The notes beneath the pieces were generated by a model. It was not told the DNA's origin. It saw nothing but the letters and a program-made list of their open reading frames with translations, and did not search any database. A program made the translations under genes and the position numbers. From a virus, in the IMG/VR virus record IMGVR_UViG_3300034073_002726, positions 1-58,460 of that record: a DNA stretch of 58,460 nucleotides. The stretch is one strand, 5' to 3'. Below are positions 41,431 through 58,191 of this stretch, piece after piece (position 1 is the stretch's first letter; every line of letters begins with the position of its first letter).

Positions 41431-41517
41431 GCTCACCATTTCATGCACCCACAAAAATCACGCACGGCAGGCAGTGGGTGAGGCTGCTTTTCGGTAGCGA
41501 ACCTAGCCGGGTGAAAC

Positions 41518-43989: not shown

Positions 43990-44640
43990 CACCCATCGCA
44001 GCAGTGATTGCGGCGACGGGTGCCAGTGATCGAGCTACGCACCGCAGGTTCTTTCACAAGTCAGCCGCCGATGTTGCTGGCCCCACCTGCGGGGCCTTTG
44101 TCCGGCGAAATAGCTCCAACGGGCATGGGCCGTTGTTCTGCGCCGCCGATACCGAGGCGGTTCCCAGTCCGCCAAAGCGCGGTAAACGGGTAGGGAACCC
44201 CGCAAGGGGCTGACACCACGGGACGGTGCTGCATGTGGATGCAGCGACACGGCTACCAGATGCCGGGATGCCCTCGCAAGAGGGCCATCACATCAGTGTC
44301 ACGAGCTGGCATTGATGTGATTGCGGACTTTGTGGGCCACAGGTTGGCTTGTGTTGCCGCATCAAGAGCTGGCCAGGGCAATCCTGGCATCGGGCGCAGC
44401 AGGTGGAAGCCCTGCACCAGTTTCGGGGCGGCAACGCCGCGCGGATTGCACCCGCGACACCTTGTCAAAGACCTCGGTGTTCGTTGGCAGAGCCGACTAC
44501 GGGAACCGCCGCGCGCCGGGCTGAGAAAGCCTCGCCGCCCCACCCTCTCCCTCCCCTCCTGCCATGCGCAGGGGTTTGCCCACCTCGCGTGGGCTTTTTC
44601 TTCCCCACCAGCCCACCACCGCGTGGGCTTTTTTATTTCC
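43990..44640 (+). ncRNA. 650-base hairpin-rich region without a convincing gene (structured RNA candidate)
   Basis: Between the promoter at 43960 and the terminators at 44578-44634 no frame looks coding. The stretch is full of perfect or near-perfect hairpins: GGCCCC/GGGGCC (44079-44096), CAACGG/CCGTTG (44117-44135), CCCC-GCAA-GGGG (44198-44209), GCTGCAT/ATGCAGC (44228-44245), CCCTC-GCAA-GAGGG (44270-44284), ATCACATCA/TGATGTGAT (44287-44321), GCCAGG/CCTGGC (44371-44388). Recurrent GCAA tetraloops favour an RNA role. It may be one large RNA or a string of leader elements. Confidence 0.4.
44578..44634 (+). terminator. Tandem terminators
   Basis: GCCCAC/GTGGGC at 44578-44594 with TTTTT, then GCCCAC/GTGGGC at 44611-44628 with TTTTTT. 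They lie just before the gene at 44657, so that gene must rely on readthrough/antitermination or on an unseen promoter. Confidence 0.8.
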
Positions 44641-50117: not shown

Positions 50118-50209
50118 GGTATGGCCGGGAGGGCGACGGCCATACAACACCCGCAAGGGCAAAACCGTCCGCCTGGCTTGTCCCAGGTTATCAGCCTCCC
50201 GGCCATGCC
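50118..50209 (+). ncRNA. C4-type antisense RNA
   Basis: A three-way junction can be drawn. Outer stem: 50118-50132 with 50195-50209 (15 bp, one G-U-type mismatch). Arm 1: 50133-50139 with 50165-50172 (one bulge), topped by CCC-GCAA-GGG at 50150-50159. Arm 2: CTGG/CCAG at 50173-50186 with loop CTTGTC. GGTTATCAG (50186-50194) is complementary to a1 and a2; CTTGTC (50177-50182) is complementary to GACAAG (50258-50263), which overlaps the antirepressor ribosome site. This is the P1/P7 c4 design, which blocks ant translation in the lysogen. Confidence 0.8.
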
Positions 50210-50223
50210 AACCGGGATCAGCG

Positions 50224-56750: not shown

Positions 56751-56795
56751 GGTAGCGGGTAGCAGCGGGTAGCGTGCTACCTTTTCCGGGTAGCC
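56751..56795. promoter_or_regulatory. Integrase arm-type repeats, left of the attachment core
   Basis: Repeated GGTAGC/GGGTAGC units at 56751-56774 and GCTACCTTTTCCGGGTAGCC at 56776-56795. The same GCTACCTTTT occurs on the other side of the core at 56970. Confidence 0.65.
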
Positions 56796-56833
56796 AACTA
56801 CCGATTTCCAGCCTATTCTGGGCCAAAAACAAA

Positions 56834-56864
56834 AAAGCCCGCTACAGTTTTAGTAGCAGGCTTT
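56834..56864. terminator. Bidirectional hairpin between int and the attachment core
   Basis: AAAGCCCGCTAC pairs with GTAGCAGGCTTT (one unpaired position) with A-rich and T-rich flanks. Could end transcripts from either side. Confidence 0.55.
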
Positions 56865-56886
56865 CCAGTATTTACGCGGTGTTGGG

Positions 56887-56931
56887 TGGTAGGACGTACA
56901 AGATTCGAACTTGTGACCAACGGATTAAAAG
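56887..56931 (-). other. attP core: 3' half of tRNA-Lys(UUU)
   Basis: On the minus strand the sequence runs from the anticodon loop CTTTTAA through TCCG, the T arm ACAAG-TTCGAAT-CTTGT, the acceptor strand ACGTCCT, discriminator A and encoded CCA. There is no tRNA 5' half next to it: the sequence upstream is GGCCGTTGTGG and phage-like. So this is an attachment core matching a tRNA-Lys 3' half, not a functional tRNA gene. Confidence 0.8.
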
Positions 56932-56969
56932 GCCACAACGGCCTTTTAAAATCAAGCACTTACAAAACC

Positions 56970-56988
56970 GCTACCTTTTGCGCTACCC
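56970..56988. promoter_or_regulatory. Integrase arm-type repeat, right of the core
   Basis: GCTACCTTTTGCGCTACCC, sharing GCTACCTTTT and GGGTAGC (in reverse) with the arm sites at 56751-56795. Presence on both sides of the core is the layout of an attP. Confidence 0.65.
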
Positions 56989-57074
56989 AAAACCGTGTTT
57001 TGCCCCCCATTTTCCCGCGATCTGAAACGCTGACCATCATTGTCAGCCATGCAGGCGGCGCATTTAACCGCCCG

Positions 57075-57085
57075 CGTTGACTCCG
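57075..57085 (+). promoter_or_regulatory. Dispersed phage motif copy 6 (plus orientation)
   Basis: CGTTGACTCCG on the plus strand, the only copy in this direction, ahead of the structured RNA at 57117-57215 and the MazF/PemK-like gene. It links this right-hand region to the phage. Confidence 0.5.
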
Positions 57086-57116
57086 GCGAAATCCCTCTGA
57101 AACTTTCTCTTGTCAA

Positions 57117-57215
57117 GGTGGCGGAATCACCAGACAATCGCACCAGAGCCCTTACTCATGCGTTCCTGCCTTCAATGGCAGGTGATTCCGCCACCGGAAC
57201 GCAGTAGTAAGGGCT
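57117..57215 (+). ncRNA. Bistable structured leader RNA upstream of the MazF/PemK-like gene
   Basis: Two interleaved inverted repeats: A (57117-57131) with A' (57181-57195), 15 of 15 bp; B (57147-57166) with B' (57196-57215), 18 of 20 bp. The order A-B-A'-B' allows either a pseudoknot or two mutually exclusive folds. A small hairpin TGCC/GGCA (57167-57180) lies between B and A'. B:B' followed by TTTT would act as a terminator, and A:A' as antiterminator. I recall a published 'pemK' RNA motif upstream of such genes but cannot compare. Confidence 0.7.
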
Positions 57216-57288
57216 TTTGCGTTTCTGGGTCAGGGCGCCATGCTGTACTGCGACTCTGGATTTCATCAACAAGACGCCGATTTGTCAC

Positions 57289-57687
57289 ATGCCACTCAGA
57301 TTCCAGCCAGCGCCTGGCACCATATTGAACTGCGACTTTTCGGGCTACATCGTCCCGGAGATAGTGAAAACACGGCAAGTCGTGGTCATCTGGAAGCACA
57401 AGACAAATGCCAAGCTGGTGTACATCGTTCCGCTGTCCACCACGGCGCCGCACACGCCTGCGCTGGCGCATGAATTGGCCCGCGTTCCGATACCGAGGCA
57501 GGGACAAGACCCCGACACCAAAGTATGGGTGAAGTGCGACATGATCTACACGGTGTCCACTGACCGCCTGAGCATGCCGGTCAACAGGGCATCACGGCGA
57601 AACGCGGCGCCCATCAACATCAACCTCTCTACCCCCGACCTGATGGAAGTCCGCCAGCGCATTGCGAAGGCGTTGCGCCTGGGGTAA
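57289..57687 (+). CDS. MazF/PemK-like toxin-family protein
   Basis: The 132-residue product has PGTILNCDFSGYIVPEIVKT, RQVVVIWKHKTNAKLVYIVP, LSTTAPH and WVKCDMIYTVSTDRLSMPVN, which is the CcdB/PemK (MazF-fold) pattern: P-G-x-I..DF, the K.R.VVVI strand, PLSTT and D-x-I.TVS..RL. The family contains RNases. No protein antitoxin gene is adjacent. The start lacks a clear Shine-Dalgarno; the leader is structured. A promoter overlaps its last codons. Confidence 0.8.
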   Translation: MPLRFQPAPGTILNCDFSGYIVPEIVKTRQVVVIWKHKTNAKLVYIVPLSTTAPHTPALAHELARVPIPRQGQDPDTKVWVKCDMIYTVSTDRLSMPVNRASRRNAAPININLSTPDLMEVRQRIAKALRLG

Positions 57688-57690
57688 AAT
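57662..57690 (+). promoter_or_regulatory. Promoter of the downstream small RNA
   Basis: TTGCGA (57662-57667), exactly 17 bases, TAAAAT (57685-57690), which overlaps the toxin-family stop codon. Predicted start about 57697. Confidence 0.75.
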
Positions 57691-57696
57691 CAGGCC

Positions 57697-57808
57697 GTAC
57701 CCGCAAGGGGCTGCAAGTCTGGTCCGTTTAGGCGTTGACCAGCCAGCATGAGACGCGATGACAAGCCCTCCTGCTGAAATCAAGGGGCACTTCGGTGCCC
57801 CTTTGTCT
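57697..57808 (+). ncRNA. Small RNA gene downstream of the MazF/PemK-like gene
   Basis: About 110 bases between a good promoter and a strong terminator with no open frame of note. Visible elements: CCC-GCAA-GGG hairpin (57700-57709), CTGGTC/GACCAG stem (57719-57742) and a terminator AAGGGGCAC-TTCG-GTGCCCCTT (57782-57803) then TGTCTTTTC. Candidate RNA partner of the toxin-family gene or an unrelated sRNA. Confidence 0.6.
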
Positions 57809-57858
57809 TTTCTGGGTGGTGATGTCTATCACCCCTTGGGGATGTCATGGGCGGGAGG

Positions 57859-58191
57859 TTACTGCCCGAATTTCTCATGGCACACCTGCAGCCCAGCACG
57901 GACACCTTCTTTGGTGGGCGCCTTGCTGGCCTCTGTTCTGCAGGAGTCGTAGCGCCATCGGTCGATTGGGCCTAGCTCGCGCTTGGGAGGTGGCTCTACC
58001 GCTTCGAGATTTTTCATTAACTGCTGATAAGACGCTTGATCCATTGGGGCGACTTGCCCAGCCTTTGGCGCTTCTTCATATCGCAGGCCCTGTTTTATCA
58101 GGTCCTCGATAGTTGCTGGCTTTCCCCCTTGCTGCGCCACTGCAGCAGTACAAGCGATCAAGGCAGCCGCCGCCCAAAGAATTTTCGTCAT
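57859..58191 (-). CDS. Small exported protein (110 aa)
   Basis: GAGGACGCT precedes ATG 58191. MTKILWAAAALIACTAAVAQ is a clean signal peptide (cleavage after AVA). The mature part (IEDLIKQGLRYEEAPKAGQV, RWRYDSCRTEASKAPTKEGV) has two cysteines likely disulphide-bonded and a helical layout. Such proteins occur as phage-carried 'moron' genes or host periplasmic proteins. Function unknown. Confidence 0.7.
   Translation of the reverse strand: MTKILWAAAALIACTAAVAQQGGKPATIEDLIKQGLRYEEAPKAGQVAPMDQASYQQLMKNLEAVEPPPKRELGPIDRWRYDSCRTEASKAPTKEGVRAGLQVCHEKFGQ

Follow-up and report, generated by a model that had tools for sequence, protein, structure and literature searches.

A covarying phage RNA element with interleaved inverted repeats as a possible attenuator-type switch

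Genomic context of the element

We investigated the end of a viral DNA stretch of 58,460 nucleotides (IMG/VR virus record IMGVR_UViG_3300034073_002726, positions 1 to 58,460), which is hereafter called the window. An RNA element with interleaved inverted repeats lies there, followed on the same strand by a pemK/mazF-like gene and a second structured RNA:

57077..57104, + strand: weak promoter-like site, TTGACT-16-GAAACT (or -17-AAACTT), with 8/12 consensus matches
57105..57226, + strand: whole RNA element (model R2 match at 57102-57226, 108.3 bits; 9 sequences, including the window, went into the model)
57110..57137, + strand: hairpin P1 (TTGTC/GACAA; 57110-57114/57133-57137), with A in its loop; weak covariation
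57117..57131, + strand: arm A, from inverted-repeat pairing
57147..57166, + strand: arm B, core CCTTACT-CA-TGCG, from pairing and relatives
57167..57180, + strand: hairpin P3, between B and A', sequence-variable in relatives; covariation given below
57181..57195, + strand: arm A', complementary to A, from pairing and covariation
57196..57215, + strand: arm B', complementary to B, from pairing
57215..57225, + strand: U-tract and tail TGCGTTTC, closely resembling the 3' half of B and an alternative partner of B'
57289..57687, + strand: pemK/mazF-like gene, a neighbour outside the RNA family (PF02452, E 2.4e-11; PHROG 15698, function unknown, E 3.2e-28)
57698..57817, + strand: separate conserved structured RNA linked to the window's pemK subfamily (model R1, 87.7 bits; the window is among the 11 seeds)

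An initial annotation of the sequence had described A and A' as pairing at 15/15 positions and B and B' at 18/20, in the order A-B-A'-B', and we found exactly this; A:A' pairing amounts to 18/20 when extended to 57136/57176. A' and B' directly abut, and TTTTGCGTTT lies directly 3' of B'. The window contains 17 perfect inverted repeats of 10 bp or more that lie within 110 nt; A:A' is the longest of them (15 bp; next ones, 12), and no interleaved pair other than A/B has both arms of 10 or more. No such pair occurred in 60 first-order Markov sequences of window length, one of which had an inverted repeat of at least 15. The element extends somewhat beyond the bounds first given, to about 57105-57226, and its + strand RNA has a fold energy far below that of its shuffles (z = −5.84). 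A coding role of its 55-aa frame was rejected, with no Pfam or PHROG match and a best plasmid match at E 7; in L136, L138, and L141, by eye, this frame has a stop just before B.

The promoter-like site predicts a transcription start near 57111, and its spacing to A is similar in seven other elements. Another candidate, TTGTCA-17-GACAAT, was rejected because its hexamers are the P1 arms, whose promoter likeness is probably due to chance, and because the promoter-like sites of relatives lie farther upstream. The window's U-tract is short (TTTTGCG), and a terminator scan did not list the B:B' hairpin, whose loop is far above the limit of the scan.

Stretch L098 encodes an integrase 98% identical to that of the window and matches the window up to 56934. 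Beyond this point L098, unlike the window, continues into the apparent rest of a tRNA, so that 56890-56934 would be the attP core, with the element and pemK being phage DNA beyond it. This probable attP core sits in a tRNA-like 3' half and is flanked by GGTAGC repeats (56751-56802 and 56968-56988), which are perhaps integrase arm sites. The window also carries a 22-nt direct repeat (57234-57255/57316-57337, 82% identical), the second copy of which is near the pemK start, taken as the ATG at 57289. The first copy was rejected as a remnant of the pemK 5' end because the resemblance is at chance level: conserved coding of other genes, which we take to be FtsK-like and HisH-like, resembles it alike. 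The neighbouring protein at 57862-58191 had no match in viral_contigs.

Homologues and covariation

The first relative, L132, emerged when the small reading frame across the element was searched as a test for coding; its DNA is 87% identical to window positions 57141-57238. A pattern built from the B and B' arms, with A and A' lying outside it, then gave nine stretches in viral_contigs. A first version of this pattern was off by one base, and its sole match, L133, was rejected as lying inside a transposase-like coding frame. Since L137 is the contig of L132, and L134 and L135 do not differ within the element, nine distinct elements result (the window and eight others), all of which keep the A-B-A'-B' order.

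The element was not found elsewhere: the B/B' pattern had no match in 340 genomes of the class, blastn with window positions 56990-57300 and the L132 element had none in 50,697 phage and 72,556 plasmid records, and an exact 21-mer had none in viral_contigs and genome_contigs. Across 399 genomes from the order to which G010 belongs, model R2 matched twice (L143 and L144), and both matches were rejected as plain terminators by eye. A descriptor match at L096 4983 was rejected because no U-tract lies behind it. The element is therefore known so far from IMG/VR contigs alone, the names of which suggest metagenomes.

The initial annotation had proposed compensatory changes in homologues as its own test, and A:A' shows them. 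The letters of A and A' are mostly unlike between phages, and their complementarity is kept in 8/9 elements (10-15 bp). The native mean pairing score was 30.06, against 16.15 for mismatched partners, and was reached in 0 of 20000 permutations (2/20000 when L138 and L141, with an A similar to others, are left out). Counting G-U, A:A' spans 15 bp in the window, 14 in L132 and L142, 13 in L138 and L141, 11 in L136 and L140, 10 in L139, and 7 in L134. When elements were examined singly, the pairing was reached by at most 0.2% of shuffles in 8/9; that of L134 is at chance level (21.7%). Between the window and L132, three A:A' pairs are changed on both sides. The other pairings covary to differing degrees, with 76/20000 permutations for P3, 211/20000 for pairing of B' with the tail, and 259/20000, a weak support, for P1. 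As for B:B', the letters inside the pattern prove nothing, since they were fixed by the search; outside it, the basal pair is G-C in seven elements, C-G in L134, and A-U in L140, and all nine retain the CA/GY internal loop, which the pattern had left as N.

A promoter-like site lies 11-14 nt upstream of A in 8/9 elements, scoring 7-11 of 12 (8 in the window), and the mean score was reached in 0 of 2000 random draws. The exception is L140, which has no scored promoter and no clear P1. At the other end, B' is followed by a U-tract, behind which 7/9 elements have TGCGTTYS, which closely resembles the end of B; L134 and L140 have other tails, which are also able to pair with B'. The element is thus predicted to be a self-contained unit comprising a promoter-like site, an RNA of about 115 nt, and a terminator-like end. 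In L132, the −10 site preceding the element lies between the arms of a 10-bp inverted repeat (GTTGACGGTG/CACCGTCAAC, about 1944-1976), a possible operator. The family, the covariation of A:A', and the placement after a promoter-like site are what the computations show.

Alternative folds

The initial annotation had read the locus as a structured RNA with competing pairings, forming a switch or a pseudoknot. The first part of this reading is supported. As for the pseudoknot, the order of the repeats permits one, but forming all 15 + 20 pairs together looks sterically impossible, because A' and B' abut and only P3 and a few nucleotides join B to A'; this favours exclusive states. Two exclusive folds, as sought in an attenuator, are both predicted, with covariation of differing strength and uneven energies. 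In one (T fold), A lies within hairpin P1 and B:B' closes around P3; the other (A fold) is built on A:A', with B' taking the tail as its partner in six elements (the window, L132, L136, L139, L141, and L142). This alternative pairing of B' with a downstream part-copy of B would be antiterminator-like.

In 8/9 elements, the T fold has the lower fold energy. Relative to this terminator fold, enforcing A:A' costs 0.9 kcal/mol in the window and 0.5 in L141, where the two folds are thus at most 1 kcal/mol apart; the loss is 4.9 kcal/mol in L138, 5.8 in L136, 6.7 in L139, 8.3 in L140, 9.0 in L132, and 15.4 in L134, whereas L142 gains 4.9. Given the uneven energies in most elements, a balance between the two folds is not a general property.

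Downstream genes and the second RNA

The gene behind the element is PemK-like, as initially annotated, and no promoter-like site was found on the + strand between the two. A role of the element tied to pemK or its toxin, which had also been suggested, is not supported, because the eight other distinct elements are in stretches without pemK: a search with the pemK profile (E up to 10) gave no match in L132 and L134-L142. Likewise, loci of pemK homologues lacked the element (flanks by eye; descriptor over all fetched loci). We therefore rejected a pemK leader or toxin autoregulation, there being no pemK near the other elements in the stretches examined, as well as a type III toxin-antitoxin system (ToxIN-like) of pemK and the element, which is not consistently linked to the toxin gene.

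What follows the element varies. A same-strand gene or tRNA apparently follows in at least 8/9 (from open reading frames, with partial PHROG support). The next gene in L139 encodes the anti-repressor Ant (PHROG E 6.3e-53), and PAPS reductase lies downstream in L134 (E 1.6e-36); one gene further on are a terminase small subunit in L141 (E 3.3e-30) and an O-like replication protein in L142 (E 1.4e-14). L132 has a gene for an HTH protein downstream (E 2.9e-4) and no pemK; we read this gene as resembling small terminases, with weak PHROG support. In L140, a tRNA is located just behind the element. PHROGs gave no match for the frames examined behind L136 and L138 or for the first of those behind L142.

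The RNA linked to pemK is the one downstream of it in the window (57698-57817), not the element. A Fluviibacter plasmid carries, behind a pemK, DNA that is 79% identical to part of this RNA. Model R1, built from 11 seed sequences (10 from the searched loci), matches 73 of 92 pemK loci at E up to 1 and 60 at E up to 0.01, with the RNA either before or behind pemK (also at L002, L007, L026, L040, L058, and others). Its stem 2 covaries (43 RNAs; 0/2000 permutations), and a pseudoknot GCTTG:CAAGC was rejected (563/2000 permutations). In five whole genomes, R1 occurs in six places, five at pemK and one (L110) without pemK in the examined stretch, 3.8 kb from another R1 copy. In the 399 genomes of the order it gave eight matches, of which one is at pemK, L115 and L116 are convincing but have no pemK nearby, and five resemble plain terminators or chance. 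The copies in L110 (about 1501-1630), L115 (1501-1621), and L116 (1501-1616) have no pemK within roughly 1.5 kb on each side, as would be seen for orphan antitoxins. No Rfam match at gathering level was found for this RNA in 23 loci, and none at E up to 1 in the window; the best one (L040, E 0.96) is far below gathering. The RNA is a candidate regulator or antitoxin for the PemK/MazF-like toxin. It may plausibly be an RNA antitoxin by analogy with type III systems; AbiF/RCd22 (PMC12373285) offers a second analogy. We also rejected the idea that the element is a degraded version of this RNA: R1 has no match there in a search of the whole window, and when 57167-57230 was scored by itself with filters off, it reached 10.0 bits (E 0.0082 for 761 bases), a value that we treated as chance level for the window.

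Possible functions

Because the pairings are kept even though the pairing letters change almost completely, this RNA with two competing pairings is probably a small switch. That the element belongs to an undescribed phage RNA family working as an attenuator-type switch is the reading we favour, by slightly better than an even chance; termination, antitermination, and switching are what we infer here. In the T fold, B:B' would form a stem before the U-tract and end transcription. In the A fold, with the 5' segment A held by A', the downstream tail would take B', and the terminator stem could not form; A:A' could arise first, since A' is transcribed before B'. The switch would thereby decide whether RNA polymerase reads through into the next gene, which would be pemK in the window and, in other phages, a gene for an anti-repressor, a small terminase, or replication. 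The downstream genes differ, so that no common regulatory target stands out, and some are hundreds of nucleotides from the element.

These differing neighbours, together with the element's own promoter-like site and terminator-like end, are also what would be expected if the terminated RNA of about 115 nt were itself the product, a trans-acting phage small RNA that targets host or phage RNA or protein, with A:A' merely shaping or masking it and the downstream genes being incidental. The greater stability of the T fold in 8/9 elements also fits such an RNA, which we regard as a serious though clearly less probable alternative: it leaves the tail copy of B, with its covariation with B', unexplained, and the examined stretches of its own phage hold no further copy of A beyond chance, since the other matches to A are within the range of shuffled A, so that no phage target is seen for A. 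Less likely again is a sensor of phage dosage or identity, in which free RNA from many phage copies would offer A' in trans to nascent A, block A:A' in cis, and let the terminator form, turning the downstream gene off. Each phage's A/A' would then be an incompatibility group, like the loops in plasmid antisense control, and this would account for the joint change of A and A' within a constant scaffold.

Covariation would also be expected if A and A' were two inverted binding sites at the DNA level, as protein operators or a cruciform. The window's A does have dyad ends (GGTG-N7-CACC), and this pattern is present in the window at A and A' only. By eye, however, A of L136, L139, L140, and L142 lacks such a dyad, and the U-tract and promoter spacing are strand-specific, which makes this account improbable. 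A plain terminator with chance repeats is hardly credible: B:B' and the U-tract alone would resemble one, but A:A' covaries across unlike sequences in a way that no permutation reached, which speaks against it provided that the elements are truly homologous. An RNA family without an Rfam match, and with strong covariation of an interleaved helix, recurs at unrelated sites in the genomes of environmental phages. If the attenuator-type switch is real, it would be a compact, portable control module before anti-repressor, terminase, replication, and toxin genes, and its highly variable A:A' in a constant scaffold would raise the question of what it discriminates.

Comparison with known RNAs

No model of Rfam 15 (4227 models) matched the element at gathering score in the window, L132, L134, L138, and L140. 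Below that level, window positions 56850-57900 (E up to 1) gave at most microRNA models and fstAT, and L139 (E up to 5) only these, all far below gathering. A pemK RNA motif has been published, and the initial annotation had suggested a comparison with it; at E up to 1, no such family matched the element or the downstream RNA, provided that the motif is included in Rfam. Elsewhere in the window, Rfam matches are Burkholderiales-2 (44067-44141, −), sRNA-Xcc1 (50123-50212, +), and int-alpA (41448-41513, −). In the literature, judged by titles and the openings of abstracts and mostly outside subscription papers, we recognized no RNA as the element.

Like the element, C4 antisense RNA of P1/P22-like phages (RF01695, RF03163) is a small phage RNA with self-complementary segments. 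It is sometimes located upstream of an anti-repressor gene, as the element is in L139. Conversely, C4 models did not match the element in the window, L132, L134, L138, and L140, and no C4-like target is seen in the stretches examined, where there is no second copy of A and the longest other matches are within the range of shuffled A. The models did find C4 in L032, where C4 antisense RNA and its a1/b1 target (1945-2032 and 2094-2146, −) lie upstream of a Pseudomonas pemK locus. In ColE1 RNAI/RNAII and CopA/CopT, complementary loop segments are able to change together within a constant scaffold; in the element, both partners are in one transcript and there is no link to plasmid replication. HK022 putRNA is a phage RNA acting on transcription, as proposed for the element; it binds RNA polymerase and in this way suppresses both pausing and termination (PMC9378689), whereas the element ends in its own terminator-like hairpin.

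The element differs from leader attenuators and transcriptional riboswitches in being phage-borne, with a predicted start a few nucleotides before A, differing downstream genes, a highly variable A:A', and no ligand or protein known. Examples of these systems are the trp attenuators and the pseudoknotted fluoride riboswitch (on such systems, see PMC3913778 and PMC11077080). They have competing co-transcriptional pairings, one of which is an intrinsic terminator, and an alternative pairing that captures a terminator arm, both of which are predicted for the element.
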